DNA of 25,459 bases, taken from the IMG/VR virus record IMGVR_UViG_3300035034_000612, positions 1-25,459 of that record, one strand, 5' to 3'. Positions within the stretch are counted from its first letter, which is position 1. The number at the start of each line of letters is the position of its first letter. Both the position numbers and the translations under genes were made by a program. This DNA comes from a virus. This document shows positions 2,347-18,855 of this stretch, piece by piece. Below the pieces are notes generated by a model, which was not told where the DNA came from, did no database searches, and worked only from the letters and a program-made list of their open reading frames with translations.

Positions 2347-2943
2347 TTATTCAGCGGGCGCTGTTTCTTCAGCCGTTTCTTCTTTCGGCAGCGTCACGCG
2401 ACCAGTAACGCCGTTGAACTTGCGCCACCTGGCGTACTCAGCCTTGGTGTTGCCTTCGTTGAGGTCTTCCTTGCTTGCACGCTCCAGCAGTTCCTTGATG
2501 GGTGCAGGCTGTCCAAGTTCCTTGGAGATCTCGTCTGCAATTTCCCAAGTCCGGCCACACTTCGTGTTCGGCTTCGGACGACGGATACCGTTCTGCTCGG
2601 GCATACGGTTAGCTTCACGCGCGGCTTCTTTGCGCTTGGCTTCTTCAGCTTTCGCTTCCTTGGCAGCTTCCTTGGCAGCTTCGCGCTCTGCCTTCTCAGC
2701 TTCCTTGGCAGCTTTCTTCGCGGCACGCTCTTCTTCGCGGGCTGCTGCTTTGTGTTCCTTCTCGACAGCCGCGTTGGCTTTCTTCAGGGAACTTTGTGCT
2801 GTGCGCAATTCAGCCTTCTTGGCCTTGACTGCTTCCTTGTCAACCTCGTCGGCACCTTCCAGGGCGGAAACTTCGGCGCTCAGGTTTTCGGTAGCCGCTT
2901 CGGCTTCAACAGCAGCTTCTTTCAGGGTCTCGATCTTGTCCAT
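2347..2943 (-). CDS. Coiled-coil protein with shared C-terminal domain (paralogue A)
   Basis: 198 aa from the ATG at 2943, chosen because GGAG sits 7 nt upstream; a longer frame upstream has no such site. Residues 1-110 are almost only Ala, Glu, Lys and Arg and should form a long charged helix or coiled coil. Residues 114-182 are a compact domain beginning QNGIRRP and ending ARWRKFNGVTGR. The same domain ends the proteins at 3842-4414 and, more distantly, those at 3040-3774 and 17871-18533. The last 16 residues are an acidic Thr/Glu tail. I do not recognise a function; a DNA- or protein-binding adaptor is a guess. It has its own promoter at 3008-3036. Confidence 0.85.
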   Translation of the reverse strand: MDKIETLKEAAVEAEAATENLSAEVSALEGADEVDKEAVKAKKAELRTAQSSLKKANAAVEKEHKAAAREEERAAKKAAKEAEKAEREAAKEAAKEAKAEEAKRKEAAREANRMPEQNGIRRPKPNTKCGRTWEIADEISKELGQPAPIKELLERASKEDLNEGNTKAEYARWRKFNGVTGRVTLPKEETAEETAPAE

Positions 2944-2980
2944 GGTGGATCTCCAAATTGTTGGATATACTTTATTTAAT

Positions 2981-2998
2981 TTCACGCAGTAACGTGAA
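2981..2998. promoter_or_regulatory. TTCACG inverted repeat just downstream of the promoter
   Basis: TTCACG (2981-2986) and CGTGAA (2993-2998) form a perfect 6-bp inverted repeat with a 6-nt spacer, about 10-30 bp past the predicted -10 of paralogue A. A third TTCACG occurs at 3023-3028 inside the promoter spacer. The arrangement suits a repressor operator or a 5' leader hairpin. Confidence 0.4.
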
Positions 2999-3007
2999 CG
3001 GACTGCT

Positions 3008-3036
3008 AATTTAACAGCGTCCCTTCACGATTGCAA
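3008..3036 (-). promoter_or_regulatory. Sigma70-like promoter for paralogue A
   Basis: On the minus strand TTGCAA (3031-3036), a 17-bp spacer, then TAAATT (3008-3013). It lies immediately after the stop of the upstream gene and reads toward the ATG at 2943. Confidence 0.5.
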
Positions 3037-3039
3037 CTA

Positions 3040-3774
3040 TTAAAACGGGGCTCGAGTTTTGTGCCATGCGCCTAGTTCCGAACTGGAGCTTGCACGCTTT
3101 ATGGCCTCATCCTTTTCTAGCGTGTCCATGACCTGCTTGCGGATCAAAAGCACCTCCGACTTGTCAGTAGGCTTCCCCGCTTCCTCCCAGGCCTTATCCG
3201 CTGTGGACCATATGATTGCCTTAGCTGTGCCTCGCTTAGGCCCAGCAGCAGGTTTCGCCGGATGCTGTGTACCGGGGTTTGGCCGATCGTTGCCTGTGCC
3301 CGAGCTACGCGGCCGCACTTTTCTCGTTAGCGCTGGCAGCTCACCTGCAATAGCTTTCCGCTCCTCTTCTTCGTTCTGTTTTGCACGACGGCACGCTTGC
3401 TCAAAGAGATCAGGTTTCTGTGCTGGCCGCTTGGCCCCCTTAACATAGATCCACACCTGTTCATCGTCCAGGACCTGCTCTGCTTGTCGCTCCGCTTCAA
3501 CGGCGTCAATATCAGACTCGCTTGTGCGTGTGGCAGCATCAAAGACTACCTGGAGAAGCTGCTGGCGCTTGAGCTTCGTTTCTGCCCCTGTCATGTTGCG
3601 GTATAACATCGCAAGCTCCATGTCCGTGAACTGGCGAAAACCAGTAGCATCGTCAAGACCAAAGATTGCGTAGCCTTTGTGATGCGCTTCTATCCAGGCG
3701 ACGTCAGCAAGCACAAAGAGGTTCTGGTGCTTGTGCAGCAGCGCCATTCGCTCGAGTTCAATCAGTACATACAT
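3040..3774 (-). CDS. Unknown protein with shared C-terminal domain (paralogue C)
   Basis: 244 aa from the ATG at 3774; GGAG lies 7 nt upstream in a leader (TTTGGAGATCC) that is also found before the gene starting at 2943. The N-terminus (MYVLIELERMALLHKH, with VLADVAWIEA following) is a small alpha/beta-looking domain of about 65 residues. Residues 66-150 are charged and helical, and 150-178 are a Pro/Gly/Arg-rich linker. Residues 178-241 are the shared domain, closest to the one in the rightward gene at 17871: both have GT/GS, PTD, a helix with MD-x-LE, IKR, SELG or TELG, and W-x-K near the end. No catalytic motif seen. Function unknown. Confidence 0.85.
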   Translation of the reverse strand: MYVLIELERMALLHKHQNLFVLADVAWIEAHHKGYAIFGLDDATGFRQFTDMELAMLYRNMTGAETKLKRQQLLQVVFDAATRTSESDIDAVEAERQAEQVLDDEQVWIYVKGAKRPAQKPDLFEQACRRAKQNEEEERKAIAGELPALTRKVRPRSSGTGNDRPNPGTQHPAKPAAGPKRGTAKAIIWSTADKAWEEAGKPTDKSEVLLIRKQVMDTLEKDEAIKRASSSSELGAWHKTRAPF

Positions 3775-3794
3775 ATCGGATCTCCAAACGAGTT

Positions 3795-3813
3795 GGCGGG
3801 CACGTGGCCCGCC
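3795..3813 (-). other. Strong GC hairpin between paralogues B and C
   Basis: GGCGGGC (3795-3801), loop ACGTG, GCCCGCC (3807-3813): a perfect 7-bp GC stem. No T-run follows in the minus direction, so it is either a weak terminator or an RNA-stabilising hairpin. A second small hairpin (GAGCC/GGCTC, 3830-3843) overlaps the stop codon of the preceding gene. Confidence 0.45.
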
Positions 3814-3841
3814 GTATCTCTTGTCGAGTGAGCCCGGAGGC

Positions 3842-4414
3842 TCATTTGCTTGCGTTTTGACGACCGACAATGCCGTGGAACTTGCGCCATTGGTACATCT
3901 CAATGACTGCGTTGTTTGCGTTCCAACCCTTATCAGCAGCAGCTTCTTTCAGCAGCTTCGGCATTGGCATAACACCCTTCTCATTCAGTGCGTCACAGAA
4001 GTCCCAAATGGCGCGACACTTGCCACCAGCGCTCGGACGCTGCACACCGTTGAACTCTGGGCGATCTTTTTCAATCTTGATGCCAGTTCCCTTAGTTGGC
4101 AGCTCGCATGGCTCACCGAACTCTTCACCGCAACCCAGGCACAGCCACTCATGTGTGATTGGCTCAATTTCACTTTGGTTCTTGTGAGCGTCCAGCATGT
4201 TTTCGAAGTCCTGCAGACCGTTGCTCAGGTGGATGTTACAGTGTGGGCAGTAAGCGTGGCCACATGTTGCAATCAACTCCGCGTCGTCTTCGTTTACTGC
4301 TACTTCCCAAGACCAGCGACCTTCTTCGTTCTGGATAAAGTTCAGCTCGTCGATGTTCAGTTCGTTGCGCTTGGCGCCTTTCTTTGCTGCTGCTTTAGTT
4401 GAGTATGTTTTCAT
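3842..4414 (-). CDS. Zinc-ribbon protein with shared C-terminal domain (paralogue B)
   Basis: 190 aa from the ATG at 4414, which has GGAG 8 nt upstream; a longer in-frame reading would cover its own promoter and is rejected. Residues 1-48 are Lys-rich and then acidic. Two CxxC pairs, Cys56/Cys59 (CPHC) and Cys92/Cys95 (CLGC), with extra Cys51 and Cys103, look like a zinc ribbon. Residues 121-185 are the shared domain: FNGVQRP, KCRAIWDFCDAL, GWNANNA and MYQWRKFHGIVGR. It is closest to the C-terminus of the protein at 2347-2943. The zinc ribbon suggests nucleic-acid or protein contact. Function unknown. It has its own promoter, whose leader matches that of the divergent gene at 17871. Confidence 0.88.
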   Translation of the reverse strand: MKTYSTKAAAKKGAKRNELNIDELNFIQNEEGRWSWEVAVNEDDAELIATCGHAYCPHCNIHLSNGLQDFENMLDAHKNQSEIEPITHEWLCLGCGEEFGEPCELPTKGTGIKIEKDRPEFNGVQRPSAGGKCRAIWDFCDALNEKGVMPMPKLLKEAAADKGWNANNAVIEMYQWRKFHGIVGRQNASK

Positions 4415-4472
4415 GTTGCGTCTCCGTTGCTTTGGTTGTTTGTTGTGTTGCTGTTTTGCTACACATGAAACA

Positions 4473-4500
4473 AGTATAAACACATCCAACGTAGATGCAA
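4473..4500 (-). promoter_or_regulatory. TTGCATC-family promoter for the zinc-ribbon gene
   Basis: On the minus strand TTGCAT (4495-4500), 16-bp spacer, TATACT (4473-4478), preceded by an AT-rich stretch and TTTGTGAAA. The same arrangement (TTTGCGAAA, 4 nt, TTGCATC) occurs at two rightward promoters near 17802 and 18582. It lies in the 115-bp gap after the helicase gene. Confidence 0.7.
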
Positions 4501-4529
4501 ATGATTTCACAAAATAAATCCAAAATAAT

Positions 4530-6341
4530 TTAGAAAGGTATGTCGTCCTCGAACTCGTCAACGAACTCGTTGTCATCTATCTTGCTGTTATTGAAGGGAA
4601 TTGGCTTGTGTGTCTCAGTGGTAGGCACCAGCAGCTCGTCCGCCTCTTCTTTCCCAAAATGCGTCCCGTCATGGCAGTAAGCCATGATTTCTAGATATTT
4701 TTTATTGGTCCAGACGCGAAGGCTAGTAGTAGGGGACAGCAAAGACGATTGCTCTATCCCTTCCGCTGTGCTGGCGGGGAACGGACGTTCAGTGCGTGCC
4801 TTCCACCACTGCTGTGCTTTGCGCTGCGCGAACCCCTCGTGCTCGAAACAAACATAGTCAGTGAACATGTGGAACCCACAATAGTAGGACACCTTCATCA
4901 TTGGAGGCTTGTCCATCTTTGTGTGTTCCGCGTAGGTAATGTGCTCAACCTTAAACTCCTCGACGACAGGCAGGTCCCCTTTGATCAGCTCGTCTGTGCT
5001 GGCCCCCTGTTTCAGCTTGGTCTGGAAGTTGAACTCGTTGCCACAATGTGGGCACGTCCGACAGCTTGCATGGACCCAGATATCACATACCTTGTTCTCG
5101 GCTGTGATACCCTCACACAGTTTAATGGGCGCATCACCAGTCTTCTTCCCCTTCTTGGGAGGGAGCACAGGATCGTTGATGGGGCCAAGCCGTTTAGTGT
5201 TGCCGCCAAAATCCAGCACCATACAGTTCTGCTTCTGGCTGTGTGCGATGGAAGCGAGTCTCCCCTGCACATTGTCTAGGTCAAACCCATCCGCGTATAC
5301 AGGTCGGGTGCCGCGGCCTAGCATCTGGACCCATAGCCCTGGACTGCTAGTTGGCCGCAGCATTAGGATCAGGTCGATGGGAGGGTGGTCGAACCCTGTG
5401 GTCAAGACGTTGTTGTTCACAAGGGCTCGCAGTTCGCCACGCTTGAACTGTGCTATGGCTTCGTCGCGCTCCCCGTCACTCATCTTGTATTCTTTGTTCC
5501 CACTGTGGACCGCCTTAGCTGGCACGCCCATGGCGTTCAGAACCTCTGCTGTGTGTATAGCGTGCTCCACACCAGCAGTGAATACCAGCCAGCTGTGTCG
5601 CTCTGTGCCTACCTCAATGGCTTCCTTGACAGCGGCTTCTGTGATCTCGCTCTTGTCAACTGCGTTCTGAAGCTCCTTGGCAACGAACTCCCCTGCCCGC
5701 TTGTGTACGCCATCCACGTTGAGCATGAGCTCGGTTCGCTTCGGGACCAGCGGGCACAGGTAGCCCTCCTCGATGAGCTTGTTGAACTCCTCCAGGGTTG
5801 TGAGGTCGTAGCACACATCCGTGAACAGACCTCCGTCCTCGATTATCTCGCCATGCCCCAGCCGGTAGGGTGTAGCAGTTAAGCCAATGACTTTCAGGTT
5901 CGGGTTGTACTCTTTCAGAGCTGTTATGAACTTCTGATACATGGTGGTGTCGGTGGGGCTGACCAAGTGGGCCTCGTCAATCACGAGGAGGTCAATGTGC
6001 CCAAACTCCTGCGCACGCTTTGCCACTGAACCGATGCCAGCGAAGGTGATATTGTTGTAGAGGTCCTTCCTTCCCAGGCCGGAGCTGTAGATGCCGGAAG
6101 GGGCTGTTGGCCATATGATCTGGAGCTTGTCGTAGTTCTGCTGAATCAATTCTTTCACGTGGGTGAGGATCATGACTCGCTGGTTCGGGAATGCGTCAAA
6201 CACTGTACGCACGAACCCACCGATCACAAGCGACTTGCCTGTGCCGGTAGGCATAGCGACAATCGGGTTCCCCGTCTTGCCGCTTTTGAAGTAGTCCCAA
6301 ATCGCTGTCACGCCATCCCACTGGTACGGACGGAACTTCAT
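4530..6341 (-). CDS. SF2 DEAD/DEAH-box helicase with zinc cluster and SSB-type C-terminal tip
   Basis: 603 aa. Helicase motifs in order: Walker A MPTGTGKS (30-37), DEAH (122-125), TATP (155-158), TTGFDHP (314-320) and QMLGRGTRP (339-347). A Cys cluster (Cys409, Cys419, Cys427, Cys430, Cys433) in the accessory region looks like a zinc finger. The organisation matches phage SF2 helicases of the RadD/UvsW-like kind that remodel forks or recombination intermediates. The protein ends DEFEDDIPF, which is essentially the acidic tip of bacterial SSB (DDDIPF), preceded by an acidic, Asn-rich stretch. This would let it bind host proteins that read the SSB tip. The J-domain gene upstream ends 5 bp before this start, so the two are coupled. 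Confidence 0.93.
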   Translation of the reverse strand: MKFRPYQWDGVTAIWDYFKSGKTGNPIVAMPTGTGKSLVIGGFVRTVFDAFPNQRVMILTHVKELIQQNYDKLQIIWPTAPSGIYSSGLGRKDLYNNITFAGIGSVAKRAQEFGHIDLLVIDEAHLVSPTDTTMYQKFITALKEYNPNLKVIGLTATPYRLGHGEIIEDGGLFTDVCYDLTTLEEFNKLIEEGYLCPLVPKRTELMLNVDGVHKRAGEFVAKELQNAVDKSEITEAAVKEAIEVGTERHSWLVFTAGVEHAIHTAEVLNAMGVPAKAVHSGNKEYKMSDGERDEAIAQFKRGELRALVNNNVLTTGFDHPPIDLILMLRPTSSPGLWVQMLGRGTRPVYADGFDLDNVQGRLASIAHSQKQNCMVLDFGGNTKRLGPINDPVLPPKKGKKTGDAPIKLCEGITAENKVCDIWVHASCRTCPHCGNEFNFQTKLKQGASTDELIKGDLPVVEEFKVEHITYAEHTKMDKPPMMKVSYYCGFHMFTDYVCFEHEGFAQRKAQQWWKARTERPFPASTAEGIEQSSLLSPTTSLRVWTNKKYLEIMAYCHDGTHFGKEEADELLVPTTETHKPIPFNNSKIDDNEFVDEFEDDIPF

Positions 6342-6346
6342 ATTCT

Positions 6347-6961
6347 CTATCCTACATAGGGGTCGGTTTCATTCCAAGGCGATGACGTAACGGGGCCCGG
6401 AGTCGTTCCAGTATAACGGAACTCGTCCAGCAACTCTAGAGCTCTACCCATAACCTTTTCACCCTGCTTTGCTTGCTCCAGCTTATGGGTGAGGGACTCG
6501 AGGTGCCCGGTCAACATTCCGACCAGGTTGTCGTTGGCAGCAGTGTGGTCAATGAGGTACGAAAGGCGCTGCTTTGCAACATCCGTTTCACGCTTCTCTT
6601 TTATGCACTGCCGCAACGAGTTCTGGACGATCTTGCGAGTCTCTGAAATGTAGTCCTTGGCAACAAACCCTTGAGTAGACGCTAGGTTGAGAAACACCTC
6701 CGAGATCATACCGTTGGCATGATCATCAATGGAAGGCGGCTTGTGCTGGCTGTCCTCACCGGTCCGGTCGTAGTGCTCCCGCTTGCTTTCATCCTTGAGC
6801 ACTGCGTAGGCGTGCTGGATGCGCTGGAACTGTGCCTTCGCTTTCGGATTGTCTGGGTGCTTATCGGGGTGGCACTTGCCCGCCTGCTGCTTGAACTGCT
6901 TCTTGATTTCTGCCTGGCTTGCACCCTTAGAGACGCCCAGGTCTTTGTACAGGTCCGGCAT
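6347..6961 (-). CDS. J-domain (DnaJ-like) protein
   Basis: 204 aa. Residues 3-66 are a J domain: LYKDLGVSKGAS, the HPD tripeptide at 31-33, and a last helix ending EHYDR. The HPD loop stimulates ATP hydrolysis by Hsp70 (host DnaK). There is no Gly/Phe region, no zinc domain and no canonical substrate-binding domain. Residues 80-185 are a helical C-terminal part unlike host DnaJ. Its stop is 5 bp from the helicase start, and its own start overlaps the nuclease stop by one base (TGATG). The sandwich between nuclease and helicase suggests that it recruits DnaK to assemble or disassemble a replication/recombination complex. Confidence 0.9.
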   Translation of the reverse strand: MPDLYKDLGVSKGASQAEIKKQFKQQAGKCHPDKHPDNPKAKAQFQRIQHAYAVLKDESKREHYDRTGEDSQHKPPSIDDHANGMISEVFLNLASTQGFVAKDYISETRKIVQNSLRQCIKEKRETDVAKQRLSYLIDHTAANDNLVGMLTGHLESLTHKLEQAKQGEKVMGRALELLDEFRYTGTTPGPVTSSPWNETDPYVG

Positions 6962-7869
6962 CAGAACTTCCTTCTATACTTGTCGCACGCTGCGAACTGC
7001 TGTTCCTTGGTGATCACGCCGTACATATCACTCTCGAAATTGGCGCACTTCCAAGTCCCATCCTCCAGCGGCTTTGAATGTTGGCATGTGCGGCAATTGA
7101 CCGCTGGTGCTGCTTTCAGATGGCATACGGGCCTGTCGTCGCACCACTTGCACTTGTACCAACCTGGAGACTCGCTAATCCTGTTCGGTTCCGTTTCCAT
7201 CCAAACGAGGTTAATACCCCGGTCGATATACTGGTCAGCTGTCTCGGCATCAAATGGTATCAGCTCTGCGTATAGCTTGTCGTTATTCTTGTTGACGACC
7301 ATGTACAGCCCAACGGCCAAGCCCATCTTTCTCATGTACACTTGCATCTGTACATAATGTTCAAACTTGGCGTCCTTGACACCCTTCTTTTCTACTTCGA
7401 TAAAAGGCTTGTCGGCGCTTGTTTTGAACTCGCACAGTGCAGGGACCCCAGGCTCCAGGTCCGGGATGTTGACCACAATACCGTCACCGCTCCCGCCAAA
7501 GTGTCCTCCAGCATCGGAGATCTTGAATTGCTTGCCGTTCTCGTCCTGCTGGATCACTTCCGCGCCTATGGTAAGTAGCATGGCGATGAAGCGTGCTTCC
7601 TCAAGGTGCCCCCTGTTGAAGAGCCTCAGCAGACGTCCGTCATGTTTCTGCTGTGTAGCCCAGCGAAAGCCGTACCAGATTTTTCTTGCACAGTCACCGC
7701 CTACACCAGAGGCGCCTAAGTGCGTGCGGAATGGGAATTCGTCAGTGCGATATGCGTCGTCCATGTGTGGGATAACACGTCCCAACCAGCCACGGAAAGC
7801 AGCGCCCTGATCCGCTCGTATTGCGTCCTCTATAGCGAGGACCGTTTTGCTTGCCAAATAGATAGGCAT
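6961..7869 (-). CDS. Cas4/RecB-like PD-(D/E)XK exonuclease with predicted 4Fe-4S cluster
   Basis: 302 aa. Nuclease motifs: His88 in RGHLEE, Asp129 in GSGDG, Glu147 and Lys149 in CEFKTS, and Gln174/Tyr178 in QMQVYM. One cysteine near the N-terminus (Cys60, GGDCARK) plus three toward the C-terminus (Cys240, Cys243, Cys249, CKWCDDRPVC) is the arrangement that binds 4Fe-4S in Cas4 and AddB. Four more Cys follow (259-295). Family members resect DNA ends for recombination. It lies just downstream of the terminator that follows the SSB-like gene, and is coupled to the J-domain gene. No cas1 or cas2 is nearby, so a CRISPR role is unlikely. Confidence 0.9.
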   Translation of the reverse strand: MPIYLASKTVLAIEDAIRADQGAAFRGWLGRVIPHMDDAYRTDEFPFRTHLGASGVGGDCARKIWYGFRWATQQKHDGRLLRLFNRGHLEEARFIAMLLTIGAEVIQQDENGKQFKISDAGGHFGGSGDGIVVNIPDLEPGVPALCEFKTSADKPFIEVEKKGVKDAKFEHYVQMQVYMRKMGLAVGLYMVVNKNNDKLYAELIPFDAETADQYIDRGINLVWMETEPNRISESPGWYKCKWCDDRPVCHLKAAPAVNCRTCQHSKPLEDGTWKCANFESDMYGVITKEQQFAACDKYRRKF

Positions 7870-7887
7870 GGGTCACCTATTGCGTCG

Positions 7888-7916
7888 AAAAAATAGCCCG
7901 CCGGATGGCGGGCTAT
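7888..7916 (-). terminator. Rho-independent terminator after the ssDNA-binding protein gene
   Basis: A perfect 10-bp stem (7893-7902 with 7907-7916, TAGCCCGCC/GGCGGGCTA core), GGAT loop, followed on the minus strand by six T residues. It lies 14 bp past the stop of the ssDNA-binding gene, so it separates the SSB/Sak4 unit from the nuclease-DnaJ-helicase unit. Confidence 0.92.
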
Positions 7917-7929
7917 AGTGGAGACCGTT

Positions 7930-8724
7930 TTACTGGCCTTGAGCCCATGGAGGCATACCGTTGCCCGCGTTATTCTGCGGCTGGTTGTTCGGCTGCTGTT
8001 GGGGCTGCTGTTGGGGCTGCTGCTGGGGCTGTTCCTGTGCAGGCTGCGTCCCGTTCTGCTGCTGCCAAGGCTGCTGCGGCTGTCCCTGCGGTTGTGAACC
8101 CTGCTGCGGCTGCTGCTCGGGCTGTTGCGAAGGCTGCTGCTGCCATGGCTGCTGTGCTCCACCCTGCTGGGCCGGCTGGGATTGCTGTGCGGATTGCTGT
8201 GCGGGTTGCTGCCATGGCTGCTGTCCTGCGCCTTGTGGAGGAGTTGTGTTGCCCGGCTGTGTACCAGCACCAGCGAAGCCCTGCGGAGGAGCACCAGCAC
8301 CAGCTGCGGGCGCATCACCAGTAGACTCATTGATGTTCTTGAAACCACTGAGGTCGTTGCTTGCATCGTAACCACCGCTGGCGGGACGTACCTTTGCCTT
8401 AACCTTCAGTGGAACACCGTGAAGCTGTTGGCTGTCCTGGAGCTGCATTACGTTAGTGGCGTGGCAGATTGCAGACAGCTCACCATAGGCGATTTCCTGT
8501 GCGACCGGGTTGTTGTTGCGCAAGTTCAAACGAGCGAACAGTTTCCGGTTGGCGTACTGACCGTCCATAACTGAGAACCGAAGTTCCAGGTAGGTGCCAG
8601 CGCCGTCCTTCGTAGGCTTCATTTCGGACTGGTCGATCTGCACGTTGTACCATCCCTCCGGAACCGGATCCGGCGTCCCTGCATTCGGGGCGACTTGGGA
8701 TGCGTCAAAGTTAAGTTGAGCCAT
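7930..8724 (-). CDS. DUF669-type phage ssDNA-binding protein with long Gln/Pro tail
   Basis: 264 aa from the ATG at 8724, with GGAG 7 nt upstream; a TTG six bases earlier is less likely. Residues 1-132 form the globular part, with PVPEGWYNVQI, GTYLELRFSV, GRKLFARLNLRN-like and SGFKNINES stretches typical of the DUF669 family, often found beside Sak4-type recombinases. Residues 133-264 are disordered, rich in Gln, Pro, Ala and Gly, with three QQPWQQ copies and a PQQQ run. The end is MPPWAQGQ, so the acidic tip found on most bacterial SSBs is missing. Its start lies 2 bp after the Sak4-like stop. Confidence 0.88.
   Translation of the reverse strand: MAQLNFDASQVAPNAGTPDPVPEGWYNVQIDQSEMKPTKDGAGTYLELRFSVMDGQYANRKLFARLNLRNNNPVAQEIAYGELSAICHATNVMQLQDSQQLHGVPLKVKAKVRPASGGYDASNDLSGFKNINESTGDAPAAGAGAPPQGFAGAGTQPGNTTPPQGAGQQPWQQPAQQSAQQSQPAQQGGAQQPWQQQPSQQPEQQPQQGSQPQGQPQQPWQQQNGTQPAQEQPQQQPQQQPQQQPNNQPQNNAGNGMPPWAQGQ
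7991..8026. repeat. 12-bp tandem repeat (three units) in the SSB tail
   Basis: GGCTGCTGTTGG at 7991-8002 and 8003-8014, then GGCTGCTGCTGG at 8015-8026, encoding PQQQ units on the minus strand. This is coding low complexity, probably length-variable between relatives. Confidence 0.85.
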
Positions 8725-8726
8725 GT

Positions 8727-9452
8727 TCAATCTCCTAGGATTTTGTTAAACACATTGGTCAGAAAAGGGGCTTCAAGGTTATCCAACGATCCTGACCGAT
8801 CTTTGGCCTCGTATTGCAAATCGGGCTGAGTCTGTAGAAACCTATAGCTCTCGCCCTGTGGCGTCTTGTTTACTCCAAGACGGAACACCTCGTCGAAGTA
8901 ATACGGCAGCTTCGAGCCCAGCTTAGAGCCAGGCATTGAAGGCCCATACTTGACCACACCCGACTGCTCGTCTTTGTTTGGCTCCATCTTTGCAGCCATG
9001 TAGACGTGCTTACCCGGGAGGTCACGGAACAACCGTATGGTCGTTTCCATCTTCTCTATTAGTTCGCCATACGCCTGGCGGGGATCTTTTACCTGGCGCT
9101 TGGCATTGTTAAGGACTACCTCTGCAATCTCGGAAAGCGAGTCCAGGCATATAGTCTGGAAAGGCCTTGCCTCAGCACTCTGGACGCACCAGTTATAGGC
9201 GTCAGTGAGATCGTCAACAGTAGCGATCTGGATCACGGGCACGTTGTAAGTGACCGCCTGGTTCCCTACGCCAAACAAGCGCTCCAGGTTCTTCTTGCGA
9301 AGCGATAGCAATCCAGCTTCCGCTGACAGTACAAGTGGACTAGGTGCTGTGGCACAAAGGACAGTCTTGCCCATGCCAGAGCCGCTGTAGATCAGCGTCT
9401 TCACCCCTGCCGCTTGCGAGGCTTGTTCCGAGGTTGTAAAGTGCAAAGGCAT
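8727..9452 (-). CDS. Sak4-like RecA-fold ATPase (single-strand annealing recombinase family)
   Basis: 241 aa. Walker A GSGMGKT (24-30) and Walker B TICLDS (100-105), with the compact RecA core and lack of extra domains typical of phage Sak4/AAA_24 proteins. Sak4 proteins promote homology-directed recombination and depend on the SSB encoded next to them, which fits the DUF669 gene that follows after 2 bp. The C-terminal region has GSKLGSKLPYYFDEVFRLG, usual for this family. The ATG has a strong AGGAGG. It may have its own promoter at 9483-9511. Confidence is high for the ATPase family and good for Sak4. Confidence 0.87.
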   Translation of the reverse strand: MPLHFTTSEQASQAAGVKTLIYSGSGMGKTVLCATAPSPLVLSAEAGLLSLRKKNLERLFGVGNQAVTYNVPVIQIATVDDLTDAYNWCVQSAEARPFQTICLDSLSEIAEVVLNNAKRQVKDPRQAYGELIEKMETTIRLFRDLPGKHVYMAAKMEPNKDEQSGVVKYGPSMPGSKLGSKLPYYFDEVFRLGVNKTPQGESYRFLQTQPDLQYEAKDRSGSLDNLEAPFLTNVFNKILGD

Positions 9453-9482
9453 TGGCGCCCTCCTGTTGTTAGTGCTCAGTTA

Positions 9483-9511
9483 ATGCTACAGATCGCACTC
9501 GCTAAACACAA
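9483..9511 (-). promoter_or_regulatory. Possible promoter for the Sak4/SSB unit
   Basis: On the minus strand TTGTGT (9506-9511), 17-bp spacer, TAGCAT (9483-9488), in the 73-bp gap between ligase and Sak4-like gene. The -10 is a weak match. Confidence 0.35.
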
Positions 9512-9525
9512 GATATTTCTATGGT

Positions 9526-12030: not shown

Positions 12031-12508
12031 TGAGGAACTCCCGGATTTTTGCCATGCGGTGCTTGTCACGCGCCTTTCGCATGTTGCGGCGTGCTTTGCG
12101 GTCGCAGATGTTGTTTACAACGAACCTGGCGTCATCGCTTTTGGTGTGTCCCTTCACGTGCTTCAATCGCATGTGAAGTTCGTTAGAGGATACGAAATTC
12201 TCATACCATAACACCAGTTCTTTCTCTTGATCTGTAATGCTACTCCGGCGCCCATTAAAGGCGTCAATTGCGGGCTGGCAGTCGGTCTGTAAAAGCACTG
12301 AATCTTTCTTCTCTACCAACCCACGTTTGACCGCTACACTGAGGGCATTTAGAAGGGCCATCATCTCGGCCACAATGTTGTTCCCAACATGCGATTCCAA
12401 GACTCCGTCCCCTCCTTGCTTGCCCCGTTGTGAAGCGATCCAAAAACCATAGCCCGCCTTGTCTGTTTCTGGGCAATACGAGGCATCAGCTATGATTGTG
12501 ACCCACAT
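12023..12508 (-). CDS. rnhA: Ribonuclease HI
   Basis: 161 aa. The four acidic residues of the RNase H active site are visible: Asp8 (IIADAS), Glu48 (AEMMALLNAL), Asp76 (LLQTD) and Asp136 (NNICDRKAR), with the His121 loop in VKGHT. It degrades RNA in RNA-DNA hybrids, so it would remove primers. Residues 137-161 are a basic tail. The gene starts 1 bp after the upstream stop and overlaps the AAA+ start by 8 bp. Confidence 0.93.
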   Translation of the reverse strand: MWVTIIADASYCPETDKAGYGFWIASQRGKQGGDGVLESHVGNNIVAEMMALLNALSVAVKRGLVEKKDSVLLQTDCQPAIDAFNGRRSSITDQEKELVLWYENFVSSNELHMRLKHVKGHTKSDDARFVVNNICDRKARRNMRKARDKHRMAKIREFLND

Positions 12509-12509
12509 C

Positions 12510-12929
12510 TTACTTCCCCTTCCTTTTCGGAAGCACGATCTCCAAAGATGGGGACCCGGGCTTAACGATTAGGCACTGGTCAAAGAGCTTGTGTTGCTCC
12601 TCAGTTAGGTGCCGGTATTCCTTTATCACGAGGCTTGGCTTGTACTGCACAAGCGAGTCAGGGTTGATCTTGTTTTCCCGGAGCTTGTCTTTCAGAGCGT
12701 CCAGTGCGCCAGGATCGACGTTGCGGTCCAGCTTGTACTGTGCCTTCAGCATATAGCCGTCAGCGAGCTCATAGTTGTTTGTCCCCTCTTTTGGGTCAGG
12801 GAACGCACCGTCAAAGATCTTCTTGCGCAACACCATTTCTTTGGCACGCAACTTCTTGAGCTCCTGGCTCATTTCGTACCACGCGGAAAGGTCTGCCTGG
12901 GTCACTTTGTTCTCGGGAATTTCAGTCAT
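12510..12929 (-). CDS. Conserved-looking phage protein of unknown function (139 aa)
   Basis: 139 aa. Residues 10-40 are helical and charged (LSAWYEMSQELKKLRAKEMVLRK begins this part), followed by a small alpha/beta-looking region and a long basic end (PKRKGK). No catalytic motif, Cys cluster or membrane segment. The ATG overlaps the upstream stop (ATGA), and the stop is 1 bp before RNase HI. The tight placement among replication genes supports a replication role, but I do not recognise the family. Confidence 0.85.
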   Translation of the reverse strand: MTEIPENKVTQADLSAWYEMSQELKKLRAKEMVLRKKIFDGAFPDPKEGTNNYELADGYMLKAQYKLDRNVDPGALDALKDKLRENKINPDSLVQYKPSLVIKEYRHLTEEQHKLFDQCLIVKPGSPSLEIVLPKRKGK

Positions 12930-13168
12930 GTTAGTTCCTTGTCTGTTCGGGGGTTGTCAAGGGCTTCCTGGAAGGCGCTACAAGTGTCTGGCGTCATAGC
13001 CGTCAACTCGCATGACCCGTCAGGACGTACTGCAATAGAAATCCCGCCCATATCCTCACACTCGACCACCTTACGAAGTGGGAGCGTAACTGAACCCCCT
13101 TGCTGCTCCAGTATGCGGTAGAGTGCTTGGATCATAAGGGTCTGTCGTGCCTGCTCTTCCAGGTTCAT
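12926..13168 (-). CDS. Small unknown protein (80 aa)
   Basis: 80 aa from the ATG at 13168, one base after the MazG-like stop; an upstream in-frame extension overlaps MazG and is rejected. The sequence starts MNLEEQARQTLMIQ, a helix, then a beta-rich part (GGSVTLPLRKVVE, ISIAVRPDG, CELTA). It ends with an acidic/Thr-rich tail. No known motif. Overlaps with both neighbours place it in the leftward replication operon. Confidence 0.8.
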   Translation of the reverse strand: MNLEEQARQTLMIQALYRILEQQGGSVTLPLRKVVECEDMGGISIAVRPDGSCELTAMTPDTCSAFQEALDNPRTDKELT

Positions 13169-13169
13169 A

Positions 13170-13700
13170 TTACACCTTATCCGCGCGAGCTTTGGCAGCG
13201 TCGTCCGAGTAGTTGAAGCCCTCGTACCGCTTGCCCAGCTTGTTGATATTATGCTCCAGCGCTTGCTCACGTGTGAGCTCAGCCAGTGCGTAGAAGCCGT
13301 CCAAGTAAGTGCGGAAGCGCTGCATCTCGATCCGCAACTGTGGCAACTTCTTCTCATCGTTGTACACCACCAGCTTCTTCACAACGTCCAACATCTCGGC
13401 CGCTTGTGTAAGCACAGGAACGAACGGGTCGTCCTCAAGTGTGTTCAAGTCAATCACACTGTGGACTAGCACCATATCAACACCCTGGCACAGTCCTTCA
13501 AAGTAGAACTCAATGTCGCCAAGCTCTTCCAGTGCGTTGTCCCGGTCATCAGCTTCGATTGCGCCCAGCAGTTCACCAACCTCGCCGCTCACGCCAACTG
13601 CCATGTGCAGTAAGTGAGCTCCCATAGGCGTCATCTTAGCGAGAATGTCCTCCCCTGTCTTAGCAAGAGTCTTTACCATCTCTGGATGTGTAATGCTCAT
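13170..13700 (-). CDS. MazG-like nucleoside triphosphate pyrophosphohydrolase
   Basis: 176 aa from the ATG at 13700 (AGAGG upstream). Residues 40-43 (EVGE) and 59-62 (ELGD) form the all-alpha NTP-PPase metal site ExxE...ExxD, with helices around them. Such enzymes hydrolyse (d)NTPs to monophosphates, cleaning or reshaping nucleotide pools, for instance removing host-type dGTP or damaged nucleotides. The C-terminal half (65-176) is helical and longer than minimal MazG. It is the first gene after the promoter at 13746-13774. Substrate cannot be told from sequence. Confidence 0.85.
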   Translation of the reverse strand: MSITHPEMVKTLAKTGEDILAKMTPMGAHLLHMAVGVSGEVGELLGAIEADDRDNALEELGDIEFYFEGLCQGVDMVLVHSVIDLNTLEDDPFVPVLTQAAEMLDVVKKLVVYNDEKKLPQLRIEMQRFRTYLDGFYALAELTREQALEHNINKLGKRYEGFNYSDDAAKARADKV

Positions 13701-13745
13701 ATCTGAACCTCTTGTATGTGTTGCGTTATTGCAAGCACAGAGCAC

Positions 13746-13774
13746 ACTATAAGTGAGCGCCATGCGTATGTAAA
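13746..13774 (-). promoter_or_regulatory. Promoter for the MazG-led gene block
   Basis: On the minus strand TTTACA (13769-13774), exactly 17 bp, TATAGT (13746-13751). Each box differs by one base from the sigma70 consensus. The -10 continues as TATAGTGTG, as at 16553. Located between primase stop and MazG start. Confidence 0.75.
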
Positions 13775-13794
13775 TGGCAACGCCTGATAACTTG

Positions 13795-16284
13795 CTACTC
13801 GACCTCGAGGACTCGGAAACACCGTCCATGGTAGTTGTACATCTCAACCGCTTTGCCCTTGTCAACTTCCATGATCTGCCCGTTGTCAACGGCTGCTCGC
13901 AGCGTATCGTCCAGGGCCTTAGTTGCCCCCATCCGATGATTCTTAAACGCAGTGAGCTGTGATGTGCGACCTTGTAGGTAGCTGCGAGGGACAATGCCGT
14001 CCAAGAGCATCTGCTTCTTGACCTTGCGGAGGGCTTTGCTTTCCCCTTTCAGGAAGTCCAATAGTAGTGAGTTGAGCTTCTTCATACGAGCACTGTCATG
14101 GCCGCCAATCTCACCACTTTGCACTTTGGCTCGCATGGAGTACACATCACGCTTGACTAATGTGAGCGCCCATGCTGTGTGGCCTGTATTGATACATGGG
14201 TTGATGTGGTTGTCCGCTGCTGCTAACACACCCGCAACTCGGATGGCCTTTAGGTGCGCCCGGTTCCACATCTGCCGCAGTGCTTCCTCCGAACCCGCTT
14301 CATGTATCTCCTGATCACACAGCTTGTCAAACTCGTCCAGCATTGCCTCAGCTTCGGGGTCCATACGCACCTGGATCACGTTGGAGTGCAACACTCCGGA
14401 TACGTGTGAACCAATGCCCGCAAGAGTTGCAGATATGTCACTTGGCAAGTCGTGCAGCTGGCTCCCGTTTTTGGCCGGTCGGTCCCCGTTATATTCAATG
14501 ATGTTGAAGCGCGATAAGAAGCCATCCGCCATCATCGTGTCGGTTAATGCGTCGTAGAACGTCCCAGGCGTTGTCTCACCAATCATGGTGTAGGCTACAG
14601 CGTTGACAGTCTCTACGTTCTGATCCTTGTTTGAGTAGCTTAGGCCACCCGCAACAGACGCGACACCCGACTTCTGATACAGGTTGGTCATTGCCGCCCG
14701 TAGCCCCTGCATCTGCGTATCGCGACCATCCGCCATGCGTGCGAGCTTGTGTCCCCACTCCCCGCTGATGTTGACCATCGAGGACTTGGAGCCAAGCGCC
14801 TTAACTAATGCGGGCGCGGACACGTAATCCTGGAACTCAATGTAGGGGCTTATCGCGGGACCGCAGGGCGAGCGTAGAATGTGGCCAATACCACTGTGCA
14901 TTGCCTCTTTCCCTATAGCACTTCTGGCCACGAGCACGATGTACAAGTTGAGTCCTGTCTGACCCACGTTGTATGCCTTGCCTGTAATGCCGGCCATAAG
15001 GCCCAACGCTGCTACAATAGCAACTTCTTTCACTGGCCGAGGCGCATTGCGATAGATGAATCCAGCTATGGCCCCAACGAGCCCAGGGGGCCACTCAAGC
15101 CCTTCCACTTCAGGCGGCTTAAAGTCCACATGGTTGTCGGGCGCTACAGTATGCACAGTCTGGTCGGTCGTCTGAACCATGTGCTTCACAGCAGGGTCCA
15201 CATCCATGTCACTTGGTGGCATGTAGGGGGCGGGTGGTTGTTCTGGTGCGGGTGGTTGTTCTGGCGCTGGGTGGTGTACCATGTGCGCCACCTTGCTGCG
15301 GTCCAAGTTGGCGAGCAGTCCTTGGGCGAGCATTGCCCCGTTCTCTACGCCCGCCTGTGCCTTGGCCTGTCGCGCTCGTATGATCTCAAGCGTCCTGTTC
15401 AGGTAGACATCGTTCTTGACTGCCTTGTCACGCTGCCCGAGCACAGTAGCACGGAACAAGCGCCTGCACTGTTCGTTCGACTTGCTGTAGAAAGTGAACA
15501 TGGACATGAGCGCCAAGTCCGCTTCCGATTGGCTCGGGAACTGGTAGTCCTGCCACCTTCCATAGCAGAGCCCCTCGAACTTGTCCTTGTTACTAGCAGA
15601 CCGCGCCCGTTGCCATATCTCGGTGTCAGTAAGCTCCTCGCCTACTTCCTCAAGCTGGATCTGTGCTTCGGCTAGCCCCAGCTCACGGGTCAGGGATTGC
15701 AGCAGCATGGCCCCATCGTTGATCGGGAACTGACCTGTCCCCTGCACAACCGGGATCGCGACGCTGTTGATAATGTGGTAAACAAAGTCTGATACAGGCT
15801 TCCCCGTACAGACGATAAAGCGCTCACGGGAGTAGACTTCAATCCCCTTGCCGCGGCGGCCTTTACCAATGTCCCCGTTGACCCACACATGCAGACCTTT
15901 CCCTGAGGAACTGAGCTCGGTATAGCTCTCCGCGAACTGTGTGATACCCCGATAGAAGTCTAGCTCGACTTGCGAGGTCCATTTCTCTTTGGGGTACGCT
16001 TCCCCTGTTTTCGCATCCCGGCTTTCAATGTCCTTGACATCCATGTCGATACATGTATAGGGATCCTCCGCTGTTATGATGTACCCGATGCCCCAGCCGT
16101 AGGCCAGTGCATAGTTACAAGCGGTTTCGAAATCCAACCATGGGCCTGTTACGGGGCTGGCATGGTATGGGCCATTAGGGCCTGCGAGGTAAGGTGCTTT
16201 ATCAGGGCCAGCCAAACACCACTGGTCCCTCCGTTGCATCTCAACTGGCAAGCGCCACCAATCAGCGCAAGCCAGTATCGTCAT
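13795..16284 (-). CDS. Bifunctional Prim-Pol primase / helicase-like replication protein
   Basis: 829 aa. Residues 1-200 are an archaeo-eukaryotic-type Prim-Pol: the metal pair Asp80/Asp82 in TCIDMDVKD, SSGKGLHVW (126-134), and GKGIEVYSRERF (146-157). Residues 220-330 are helical (PriCT-like position). Residues 339-357 are a Pro/Glu linker with APEQPP repeats. Residues 400-640 look like a DUF3987-type ATPase, with a degenerate P-loop ARSAIGKE (453-460) and DGFLSRF (587-593) as the likely arginine-finger box. Residues 640-829 are helical. It would prime and unwind at phage forks. The P-loop has Ala-Ile in place of Gly-x and Glu in place of Ser/Thr, which is odd. Its start overlaps the HTH gene by 4 bp. 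Confidence 0.9.
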   Translation of the reverse strand: MTILACADWWRLPVEMQRRDQWCLAGPDKAPYLAGPNGPYHASPVTGPWLDFETACNYALAYGWGIGYIITAEDPYTCIDMDVKDIESRDAKTGEAYPKEKWTSQVELDFYRGITQFAESYTELSSSGKGLHVWVNGDIGKGRRGKGIEVYSRERFIVCTGKPVSDFVYHIINSVAIPVVQGTGQFPINDGAMLLQSLTRELGLAEAQIQLEEVGEELTDTEIWQRARSASNKDKFEGLCYGRWQDYQFPSQSEADLALMSMFTFYSKSNEQCRRLFRATVLGQRDKAVKNDVYLNRTLEIIRARQAKAQAGVENGAMLAQGLLANLDRSKVAHMVHHPAPEQPPAPEQPPAPYMPPSDMDVDPAVKHMVQTTDQTVHTVAPDNHVDFKPPEVEGLEWPPGLVGAIAGFIYRNAPRPVKEVAIVAALGLMAGITGKAYNVGQTGLNLYIVLVARSAIGKEAMHSGIGHILRSPCGPAISPYIEFQDYVSAPALVKALGSKSSMVNISGEWGHKLARMADGRDTQMQGLRAAMTNLYQKSGVASVAGGLSYSNKDQNVETVNAVAYTMIGETTPGTFYDALTDTMMADGFLSRFNIIEYNGDRPAKNGSQLHDLPSDISATLAGIGSHVSGVLHSNVIQVRMDPEAEAMLDEFDKLCDQEIHEAGSEEALRQMWNRAHLKAIRVAGVLAAADNHINPCINTGHTAWALTLVKRDVYSMRAKVQSGEIGGHDSARMKKLNSLLLDFLKGESKALRKVKKQMLLDGIVPRSYLQGRTSQLTAFKNHRMGATKALDDTLRAAVDNGQIMEVDKGKAVEMYNYHGRCFRVLEVE
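15230..15264. repeat. 18-bp tandem repeat in the primase linker
   Basis: GCGGGTGGTTGTTCTGG occurs at 15230-15246 and again at 15248-15264. It codes for the Pro/Glu-rich linker between the two primase domains. Confidence 0.85.
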
Positions 16285-16520
16285 GCAAGCTCCCCGCGAT
16301 GGGAAGCAAGTGAGATCCTCCAGGCTTCAATGTAGGGCTTGGCAGCTTCGCGCTCCCATATGAAAGCACGCACGCCTGGCACACATACCGGATCGGGCAA
16401 ACGGCCCCGGATGCGTGCCCTTGCTAGTAGGGATCTATTGATGCTCAGCTCCTTCTGGATCTCCGAACTGGTAATGTACAGCTCGTCGAAACGCTCCTGG
16501 GCACTGTTGCTTTTAGACAT
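16281..16520 (-). CDS. Small HTH DNA-binding protein (AlpA/excisionase-like)
   Basis: 79 aa. ITSSEIQKELSINRSLLARARIRG (starting residue 16) reads as a helix-turn-helix, and the following RLPDPVCVPGVRAFIWERE has the wing-like pattern of AlpA/excisionase-type regulators. It is co-transcribed with the primase (ATGA overlap) from a promoter at 16553-16581. It could bind the origin or regulate the operon. Excisionase function is not supported, since no integrase is seen. Confidence 0.7.
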   Translation of the reverse strand: MSKSNSAQERFDELYITSSEIQKELSINRSLLARARIRGRLPDPVCVPGVRAFIWEREAAKPYIEAWRISLASHRGELA

Positions 16521-16552
16521 ACCGATGTTCCTGTGTGTTATTGGGAGCCCAC

Positions 16553-16581
16553 ACTATAGCGAGAGGGCGTAGTTATCGCAA
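16553..16581 (-). promoter_or_regulatory. Promoter for the HTH-primase unit
   Basis: On the minus strand TTGCGA (16576-16581), 17-bp spacer, TATAGT (16553-16558), continuing TATAGTGTG. Downstream it shares CAATAAC with the MazG promoter region. Confidence 0.7.
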
Positions 16582-16591
16582 CCAGTGGCGC

Positions 16592-17356
16592 TTAAAAGTC
16601 ATCCTTCAATGGCTTCGATATGCTCTTGGCTTGGGCATGGGCTTCGAGCTGTTGCTCAACCTCATCATCAAGCTGCTGGAGACGAGCCCTGTATGCCCCC
16701 TCTATACGTGTGAGCTCTGCTTCCCGCCAGGCGACAGCTTCCCTCCGTTTTAACTTCCGGTCCTTGCAGAGCTGCATGTACTTGTTCCAGGCATCCGATA
16801 CCCGCTCCCGGTGCTCACGACACGCCTCAAGCCAGTTCCGATGAGCGTTGTTGCGGCCCTTTTCTTTCTTCTCCTTCCTGGGGCGCCCCTGCGGTCGCTT
16901 GGGTGCAGTCTTGGCCACATACATGTCATAGGAAATGCACTCGCTCTGGTTCGCGTAGCTCGTGGCAAGGAACTCCTCGAACCTCGGATCGTGGTAATCC
17001 CATGGAAGGTCCTTTCCGAAGACTGCTGTGTAGCGATCCGGGAACGCGAGCATCATTGCCATGATACGGCAGTTCAACTGGTCAGCTGCTTTATGTACGT
17101 CCTCCGGTGGGGTCATATCAAAGTAGAAATCCCCATCCTCGCCTACCATGACCTTGGTGACGAGCCCTTTATCAACAGCCCACTCAAGCCTGGTTATGGA
17201 ACCGGGCTCGTGATGCACCATATCAAAGAAGATGTCTGTGACTTGGTCCCCTATCATTAGAGGAACGGATTCCCCCTGCTCGGTGCGATAGTAGTCGGAA
17301 CTGACATAGTCGGTACGACCTGCGATTTCACTTCTGGCTTCTAGTTGTGTAAGCAT
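16592..17356 (-). CDS. Unknown protein with AT-hook-like segment and coiled coil (254 aa)
   Basis: 254 aa, first gene of the leftward block, with an AGGAG site before the ATG. Residues 1-150 are mixed alpha/beta with no known motif. KRPQGRPRKEKKEKGR (153-168) resembles an AT-hook (GRP core flanked by basic residues). Residues 170-250 are strongly helical and charged (EACREHRERV, LQQLDDEVEQQLEAHAQ). The protein ends KPLKDDF. A DNA-binding role is plausible given the basic segment and its position beside the putative origin, but no family is recognised. Confidence 0.85.
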   Translation of the reverse strand: MLTQLEARSEIAGRTDYVSSDYYRTEQGESVPLMIGDQVTDIFFDMVHHEPGSITRLEWAVDKGLVTKVMVGEDGDFYFDMTPPEDVHKAADQLNCRIMAMMLAFPDRYTAVFGKDLPWDYHDPRFEEFLATSYANQSECISYDMYVAKTAPKRPQGRPRKEKKEKGRNNAHRNWLEACREHRERVSDAWNKYMQLCKDRKLKRREAVAWREAELTRIEGAYRARLQQLDDEVEQQLEAHAQAKSISKPLKDDF

Positions 17357-17386
17357 GACTCACTCCTGTTGTGAACTGGAATGCGT

Positions 17387-17415
17387 ACTATATAGCAGAA
17401 ACACGCCATACGCTA
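17387..17415 (-). promoter_or_regulatory. Leftward promoter of the divergent region
   Basis: On the minus strand TATAGT (17387-17392) with an extended -10 context (TGCTATATAGT) 31 bp upstream of the ATG at 17356. The -35 at 17 bp is poor (TAGCGT). Same -10 as at 13746 and 16553. Confidence 0.55.
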
Positions 17416-17420
17416 GATAC

Positions 17421-17434
17421 CCGGGGCCCCCCGG
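17421..17434. repeat. GC palindrome in the divergent region (left copy)
   Basis: CCGGGG (17421-17426), CC, CCCCGG (17429-17434). It contains GGGGCCCCCC, also found in the larger palindrome at 17518-17550. Confidence 0.7.
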
Positions 17435-17517
17435 CCCGAGCCCATGTGTTTGCCCCCTGCGACTCATAGAGCTATTGTCTGTATGGCCTAGCAACGGAAT
17501 AATAAAACACTACTATG

Positions 17518-17550
17518 TTGGTGGGAAGGGGGGCCCCCCACCCCTACCAA
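17518..17550. repeat. Long GC-centred inverted repeat in the divergent region
   Basis: The centre is a perfect 12-bp palindrome, GGGGGG (17528-17533) followed by CCCCCC (17534-17539). The ends TTGGT (17518-17522) and ACCAA (17546-17550) pair, and the parts between are nearly complementary G/C runs. It could extrude as a cruciform or block a fork or polymerase. Confidence 0.75.
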
Positions 17551-17587
17551 TACACACTTAAAAACAAAGAACGATCGTAAGATGCAA

Positions 17588-17643
17588 TAGTATAATAGTG
17601 TAGTAGTGTGTGTGGTGTTATGTTGTTGCTGTGCGTGCTGTAG
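17588..17643 (+). other. G/T-rich strand-asymmetric tract
   Basis: Only three of 56 bases are C. It starts with a perfect TATAAT (17591-17596) and near-repeats TAATAGTG/TAGTAGTG (17593-17608). Such tracts mark easily melted or strand-specific origin DNA. No good -35 lies before the TATAAT. Confidence 0.5.
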
Positions 17644-17693
17644 CTCATGTCGGGGTCATCTAACGTATGTCTCTATGAGCTGTACGCAGCCAA

Positions 17694-17721
17694 GGGCGAG
17701 GGGGACGAGGGGGTGGGAGGG
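17694..17721 (+). other. G-quadruplex-type G-run cluster
   Basis: Five G-runs of 3, 5, 5, 3 and 3 (17694-17696, 17700-17704, 17709-17713, 17715-17717, 17719-17721) with loops of 1 to 4 nt on the plus strand. It lies between the G/T tract and the rightward promoter. With the rest of 17357-17870 no gene is seen; this 514-bp stretch is regulatory or origin DNA. Confidence 0.6.
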
Positions 17722-17801
17722 TCCATACCATGCCCATAACATTCTGAAGCGTCGGAGCGTCTACGAACTGAAATTATTTTTCATTTTCTTTGCGAAAGTC
17801 G

Positions 17802-17830
17802 TTGCATCCATTTCAGATGCGTCATAATGT
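17802..17830 (+). promoter_or_regulatory. TTGCATC-family rightward promoter
   Basis: TTGCAT (17802-17807), 17-bp spacer, TAATGT (17825-17830), with an AT-rich stretch (17770-17790) and TTTGCGAAAG upstream. GCATC/GATGC half-sites flank the spacer and could be an operator. A tandem GAAGCGTC/GGAGCGTC lies at 17746-17761. Confidence 0.75.
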
Positions 17831-17870
17831 GTGTACATACTAAAGCAAAACAGCAAAAAGGCGACGCAAC

Positions 17871-18533
17871 ATGGACTACACCACAGCATTCGAAGACAGC
17901 AAGATGATGGGAGAGCGCAACGACTGCGCAGTGAAGGCCGCTGCAATCGCAACGGGCACTGATTACGCTACTGTCAACACGATGTTCGCTCAGCTGGGTC
18001 GTAAGAAGGGTCGCGGTAGCGATCAGAACTGGACACCTATCGTCATTGACAAACTTGGATATGATTTAAAGGACGTAACATCCTCAGCCCGCCGTAAAGG
18101 GGCTCTTACAGTGCGCTCAGCCGAGCGGGTCCTTGGATCCGGTGTTTATCTAGTTCGTGTCGCAGGCCACATCCTGTGTGTCAAGAACGGCCACGTACAA
18201 GATTGGACAGCGGGCAGGCAACACCGCGTTAAGCAGATCTACAAGGTCATGGGTCGCAATGCACAGACGCAAGCCGAAGCGCCTGTACAGCAGCCTACAG
18301 CACCGCGCAAGCTACAAGTCAAGGTCGGTCCTGCACAGCCTAAGCAAGGCAGCGTCAGAGACACGATTCATAATGTGGCCAACAGCATGTGGATCGCTAA
18401 CGATCGCCCAACTGACATCGCAGTCCTGCGCAAGCTCCGCGCTCGGATGATGGACTTCCTTGAGCTGACACACGGCATCAAGCGTACCACAGCAAGCACT
18501 GAGCTGGGCCAGTGGCAGAAAGGGATCCTCTAA
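17871..18533 (+). CDS. Papain-like cysteine peptidase-type domain fused to the shared C-terminal domain (paralogue D)
   Basis: 220 aa. Residues 14-127 look like a compact papain-like or C39-like fold: Cys19 at a helix start in ERNDCAVKAAAIA, His100 in VAGHILCV, and Asp111 in QDW, with GVYLVRV between, giving a plausible Cys-His-Asp triad. Residues 128-158 are a Gln/Pro linker. Residues 160-220 are the domain also ending the protein at 3040-3774 (GSVRD, RPTD, MMDFLEL, GIKR, TELGQWQK). It is the first rightward gene after the divergent promoter, so it is likely made early. Protease, amidase or an inactive binding fold are all possible; no substrate can be inferred. The ATG is preceded by an AAGGCGACGCAAC leader. 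Confidence 0.87.
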   Translation: MDYTTAFEDSKMMGERNDCAVKAAAIATGTDYATVNTMFAQLGRKKGRGSDQNWTPIVIDKLGYDLKDVTSSARRKGALTVRSAERVLGSGVYLVRVAGHILCVKNGHVQDWTAGRQHRVKQIYKVMGRNAQTQAEAPVQQPTAPRKLQVKVGPAQPKQGSVRDTIHNVANSMWIANDRPTDIAVLRKLRARMMDFLELTHGIKRTTASTELGQWQKGIL

Positions 18534-18542: not shown

Positions 18543-18571
18543 GACGCCCTACGGGGCGTCAATTTATTTTT
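18543..18571 (+). terminator. Terminator after paralogue D
   Basis: GACGCCC (18543-18549), loop TACG, GGGCGTC (18554-18560), followed by AATTTATTTTT. Its T-rich tail is also the AT-rich upstream part of the next promoter. Confidence 0.85.
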
Positions 18572-18581
18572 GCGAAAGTGC

Positions 18582-18609
18582 TTGCATCCAGGTGTAGGTG
18601 TGCTAACTT
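18582..18609 (+). promoter_or_regulatory. TTGCATC-family promoter with dyad over the -10
   Basis: TTGCAT (18582-18587), 16-bp spacer, TAACTT (18604-18609), with TTTGCGAAAG upstream as at 17802. A perfect 9-bp inverted repeat, TGTAGGTGT (18593-18601) and ACACCTACA (18610-18618), is centred on the -10 box, the expected geometry of a repressor operator. Confidence 0.75.
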
Positions 18610-18835: not shown

Positions 18836-18855
18836 TCCCTGGAGGGATAGACATG
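18836..18855 (+). promoter_or_regulatory. Duplicated leader with Shine-Dalgarno hairpin (copy 1)
   Basis: TCCCTGGAGGGATAGACATG, identical to 19039-19058. TCCC pairs with GGGA around TGGA, so part of the GGAGG site lies in a small stem. This could tune translation of the 49-aa gene. Confidence 0.6.

Follow-up and report, generated by a model that had tools for sequence, protein, structure and literature searches.

Can proteins of dissimilar build in one phage genome carry the same functional part, and what would such a part do for them? This question is raised by IMGVR_UViG_3300035034_000612, a 25.5-kb contig from a virus of bacteria (the whole contig is the window in what follows), in which four proteins with different N-termini end in similar sequences. 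The four ORFs proposed in the earlier note are real, with 17871..18533 on the plus strand and the other three on the minus strand, and for the ORF at 2347..2943 the second in-frame ATG as the start agrees with the orthologues. The features that bear on the question are listed below, with the C-terminal modules divided into an A type and a B type.

157..1563, minus strand: Gat-QueC-like protein, QueC domain at 196-810
1563..2249, minus strand: QueE-like radical SAM protein, downstream neighbour of the module cluster
2347..2943, minus strand: protein with a Lys/Ala/Glu-rich helical N-terminus and a C-terminal module (A type), directly before queE
2386..2607, minus strand: its module, A type, 74 aa modelled, predicted helices at residues 16-31, 37-46 and 51-64 (pLDDT 97)
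3040..3774, minus strand: protein with a predicted alpha/beta N-domain, a low-confidence linker and a C-terminal module (B type)
3043..3252, minus strand: its module, B type, with a longer predicted helix 2, at about residues 178-244 of the protein
3842..4414, minus strand: protein with a zinc-ribbon-like segment of two CxxC pairs and a C-terminal module (A type)
3848..4063, minus strand: its module, A type
4530..6341, minus strand: DNA helicase, next to the three module genes on their upstream side
17871..18533, plus strand: protein with a putative papain-like N-domain and a C-terminal module (B type)
17871..18260, plus strand: the putative papain-like domain, with Cys19, His100 and Asp111 invariant; stand-alone in other phages
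18327..18530, plus strand: its module, B type

The window holds exactly four module copies. Its gene order, running from the helicase through the three module genes and queE to the Gat-QueC gene, is the same as in Alteromonas phage R7M (Queuovirinae), where ORF50-52 likewise lie as a block of three between helicase and queE and every protein of the block has the module. The window contig stops just past Gat-QueC, whereas R7M continues with queD, folE and dpdA; R7M has three module copies, and the papain-linked fourth was not found there. The helicase also stands upstream of the module cluster in R7M, 9g, CAjan, RHEph04 and ART. In the divergent region that separates the two gene blocks of the window, G/C runs at 17423-17544 occur as inverted repeats (GGGGCCCCCCGGCCC ... 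GGGAAGGGGGGCCCC).

Homology of the four C-termini

Both pairs of similar C-termini described in the earlier note are significant by BLASTP: the A-type tails of the 2347 and 3842 proteins match at E=1e-13 (38% identity over 68 aa), and the B-type tails of the 3040 and 17871 proteins at E=4e-12 (33% identity over 96 aa). In addition, one B-type protein used as the query against the window returned its B-type partner at E=3e-10. The A and B types gave no significant match when compared as single sequences (E=0.07). As profiles, the A type (28 sequences) and the B type (15 sequences) were aligned by hhalign at E=6.6e-6 with probability 85, and the A type scored 44 (probability 95.5) against a profile of 44 B modules, while 100 column shuffles reached a maximum of 19 and the reversed profile 9. 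The orthologues of the 3040 protein, found on five other contigs, are sequence intermediates (4e-26 to the A type and 1.6e-9 to the B type), and HMM iteration that starts with A-type sequences only also picks up the B type. The four tails are homologous and make up a module about 65 residues long.

Predicted fold

AlphaFold gave three helices for the A module, as listed above, and three for the B module of the 3040 protein (residues 184-198, 205-223 and 227-241). In both models the conserved Trp residues take the sixth position in helix 1 and the eleventh in helix 3, and the main difference is that helix 2 is longer in the B type. When the A model was searched against viral models with Foldseek, a 237-aa R7M protein was matched with probability 0.99 and TM 0.59; 237 aa is the length of the product of R7M ORF51, a B-type protein encoded by a gene of the 3040 type. 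The view of the earlier note that all four tails belong to one family is borne out by these helices, which match in register, and by the R7M structural match, the profile match between the two pairs and the intermediates. Of the two outcomes by which the earlier note would have been refuted, a structural mismatch between the pairs and the lack of a profile match, neither came about.

Matches to known structures were weak. Foldseek of the module models found no match with E<1 to the PDB, and nothing significant came from a PDB sequence search with the A and B module profiles. Many winged-helix/HTH DNA-binding proteins are among the better-scoring PDB neighbours of both models, all with weak and tied Z scores; they include the manganese uptake regulator/Fur, LexA, Rok, KorA and the KAT6A WH for the A model (best Z 5.3), and the BsaWI N-domain, the MCM C-terminal domain, Fur/PerR and KorA for the B model (best Z 7.2). 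A PNPase segment is also among the scoring structures, and three-helix arrangements recur in proteins that do not bind DNA. Judged from these models, the module looks like a three-helix domain of the helix-turn-helix kind.

Distribution and N-terminal partners

By tblastn, the A module occurs in 150 phage records and the B module in 59, and in 23 records with the module, whole-record searches counted 2 to 4 copies apiece. The 232 distinct module ORFs contain one module apiece, mostly at or near the C-terminus, with a median tail of 6 aa behind it. The N-termini differ within the window, as had been claimed (a Lys/Ala/Glu-rich helix, a predicted alpha/beta domain, CxxC pairs and a papain-like triad), and in other phages the module was likewise found on unrelated N-terminal partners. 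Across the set, the partners comprise Lys/Ala/Glu-rich helices, an alpha/beta domain, CxxC zinc-ribbon-like segments, the papain-like domain (this window only) and short motifs that read like SAP/Rho-N, with no Pfam support. A CxxC...CxxC pattern is present in 22 of the 232 ORFs; the 3842 protein has two such knuckles, CPHC and CLGC, and its best E against the Pfam zinc ribbons (0.11-0.2) falls short of the cut-off. Searches with Pfam and NCBIfam on the four window proteins, and with Pfam on eight diverse partners, returned nothing over cut-off. The module falls in PHROGs 11298, 18634, 21588, 17772, 7864, 22313 and 28664, all of unknown function, which are seven separate whole-protein families in which the shared domain is not named; neither Pfam, nor PHROGs, nor the open-licence literature searched gave a name for it.

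Several arrangements outside the window extend this picture. In some Vibrio and Rhizobium phages (L049 1387-1956, L054 1336-2025 and L043 1384-1986), the Lys/Ala/Glu-rich stretch follows the module, which gives the reverse domain order with both parts kept. In Brevundimonas diminuta 3F5N (L103, 5539-6246, plus strand), the module is fused to a segment resembling a PD-(D/E)XK nuclease, again with no Pfam support, and the fusion gene lies near ParB-methyltransferase-like and transposase-like genes. Further bacterial loci (L105, L106 and L110, at about base 6000) have module genes near a large gene that resembles the primase/DUF3987-type protein encoded at 13795-16284 of the window; as L106 and L110 also carry a tyrosine-recombinase-like integrase gene, these have the appearance of integrated elements in which a tail of this type is also in use.

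The N-domain of the 17871 protein reads like a papain-like hydrolase domain. Its Cys19-His100-Asp111 triad, in the papain order of Cys, His and Asp/Asn, is invariant in 26 sequences, and phrog_3754 and the stand-alone proteins of phages ACP17 and P26059A are homologous to it and have the same Cys-His-Asp triad; Pfam gave no match for this N-domain. The module was found on the relatives of the papain-like domain in 0 of 44 viral loci, so the fusion, seen so far only in this window, looks like a recent plug-in. Around the 17871 gene, a 27-nt element with the core GCGAAAGTNNTTGCATCCA lies on the plus strand at 17784-17810 and 18564-18590, before the 17871 gene and the 18643 gene, respectively; two exact copies are present, against 0.08 expected with three mismatches allowed, and the element looks like a shared early promoter. 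A perfect 20-nt direct repeat (TCCCTGGAGGGATAGACATG) is found further on, at 18836-18855 and 19039-19058, and its second copy overlaps the start of the 19056 gene at its start codon.

Likeness to KfrA_N and probable DNA binding

Among the four families compared, KfrA_N (PF11740), the experimentally studied DNA-binding domain of plasmid KfrA proteins, is the closest to the module, with an hhalign score of 31 (prob 84) against a profile built in this analysis from eight sequences, and with 25-27 for each half alone; since KfrA_N was chosen after weak Pfam hits had been inspected, the comparison is partly post hoc and is support rather than proof. Shuffles scored 16 or less, and the HTH profiles of IclR, LysR and GntR 10-21. 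The alignment spans all helices; helix 1, the 'G..PT' turn and the Trp at the end coincide in it. No window protein exceeded the Pfam gathering cut-off for KfrA_N, and among 44 modules one matched, at E=0.028 only.

For comparison, the HTH of KfrA of RA3 was mapped to N29-R52; Trp51 and Arg52 end its recognition helix, and alanine at either position abolishes repression (PMC7783346). As on that helix, Trp-Arg/Lys stands at the close of module helix 3, and the 2347 protein resembles KfrA in joining a domain of the DNA-binding type to a long alpha-helical part. Unlike KfrA, in which the domain is N-terminal and is followed by a coiled-coil tail, most of the 232 distinct ORFs have the module at or near the C-terminus. 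The turn sequence also differs from that of KfrA_N, the partners are in part non-helical, and the setting is phage, not plasmid. With matches below the Pfam cut-off and the opposite domain order, the module proteins are not filed here as KfrA proteins; the tail itself probably acts in the manner of KfrA_N.

Basic residues at module positions 10, 62, 63 and 70 are 87-99% conserved. Net charge gave no sign of DNA binding, the module value of +3.8 being within the ORF background (mean +2.0, sd 5.6), and a search beside the four module genes revealed no shared operator-like repeat, the sole shared element being the RBS-like GGATCTCCAAA before two of the four. The HTH-like model, the KfrA_N profile and the conserved basic positions make it probable that the module binds DNA. 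Of the earlier reading, which had left open docking or DNA binding, the plug-in C-terminal module stands, with DNA binding as its best-supported role.

Linkage to 7-deazaguanine genes

The module is closely associated with genes for 7-deazaguanine synthesis. Directly before queE, 91 of 92 distinct loci carry the module in a gene of the 2347 type, a figure that is valid for this family only, as the query was built mainly from it; of 41 records with the module, 40 encode QueC, among them Rhizobium, Synechococcus, Microcystis, Stenotrophomonas and Achromobacter phages. Both counts would suit a direct part for the module proteins in the 7-deazaguanine system, either guiding DpdA or reading the modified base so as to separate phage from host DNA. 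This explanation appears improbable to us, because QueC-positive phages of other lineages (Dp-1, nt-1 and CP220) gave no module match, nine bacterial loci have the module without queE beside it, and DpdA and Gat-QueC of 9g alone, without module proteins, introduce dG+ into plasmids carried by E. coli at levels reaching 18% of G (PMC6884629). With these observations, the linkage falls short of showing that the module proteins take part in base insertion, and shared descent of one helicase-module-que block could account for it. A search with PF01702 (TGT) matched no phage DpdA protein, even annotated ones, and is therefore uninformative on DpdA.

The link between 7-deazaguanine genes and the module is strong in one direction only, and it is compatible with common ancestry of the block as well as with a function on the modified genome. 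The earlier note had the module bring its proteins to one target, possibly the modified genome or a host factor; a common target, and the modified genome as that target, are hypotheses.

A proposed reused tail and its alternatives

The explanation that we consider rather likely is a reused DNA-binding tail that holds different N-terminal parts on DNA. The tail of about 65 residues would be a three-helix, HTH-like DNA-binding domain that distantly resembles KfrA_N, with helix 3 and its nearly invariant Trp-Arg/Lys-Lys as the recognition helix and, in the A type, a basic Arg/Lys-Arg-Pro stretch ahead of helix 1. Several proteins of the replication and base-modification region would have acquired a copy of this tail at the C-terminus in the phage lineage, and the copies would anchor different N-terminal parts to DNA, probably that of the phage itself. 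The Lys/Ala/Glu-rich helix may self-assemble, as KfrA tails do, and the other tethered parts would be the alpha/beta domain, the zinc-ribbon-like segment and, in this phage, the papain-like hydrolase domain. We infer DNA binding, phage DNA as the target and the tethering itself from the lines of evidence given above, and the module copies may bind different sites.

Three other explanations have to be weighed against a tail that tethers proteins to DNA. The four proteins could be separate sequence-specific transcription regulators, each with an ordinary HTH and its own operators and with no common address. The HTH-like fold would agree with this, KfrA itself is an autoregulator (PMC7783346), and some homologues have been labelled 'transcriptional activator' by their depositors, although no supporting test for that label was found. 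A papain-like triad, a zinc-ribbon-like segment and a nuclease-looking domain are unusual partners for regulators, and the Trp-Arg-Lys at the end of helix 3 is nearly constant among A types; we regard separate regulators as possible but doubtful. Less plausible still, and in our judgement unlikely, is a protein-docking module by which the four proteins are recruited to one partner, be it a host factor or a replication protein such as the adjacent helicase. The position of the module cluster between helicase and queE in several lineages speaks for docking, and the invariant Trp, the conserved N-G and the G-x-x-G-R could form a surface for protein contact, but the fold and the KfrA_N profile match favour DNA, and the integrative elements with the module have neither helicase nor queE near the module gene.

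A tag for packaging into the virion or for ejection, which would load early-acting proteins into the capsid, is the least credible of the three and seems to us very improbable. Its C-terminal position and the variety of cargo would fit, yet mass spectrometry of R7M virions identified 14 proteins, namely 13 predicted structural proteins and one hypothetical protein, ORF28 (PMC8265664); R7M ORF50-52 are not that hypothetical protein, and nothing marks them as structural.

A more far-reaching form of DNA tethering can also be imagined, in which the paralogous HTH tails are DNA 'address tags' that post enzymes and scaffold proteins on the phage's own 7-deazaguanine-modified genome, perhaps with that modification as the mark that sets it apart from host DNA. 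We give this form little credence; if it were true, a papain-like hydrolase would be among the proteins posted on the modified genome.

Phages of a large group, with 9g, Seurat and CAjan among its studied members, carry 2 to 4 copies of the module per genome, and yet it has had no name. With a name for the domain, a range of hypothetical proteins that keep recurring would come down to one testable question, namely what DNA the tail binds, and a named domain would provide a handle on how the replication region is organized in phages with modified bases.
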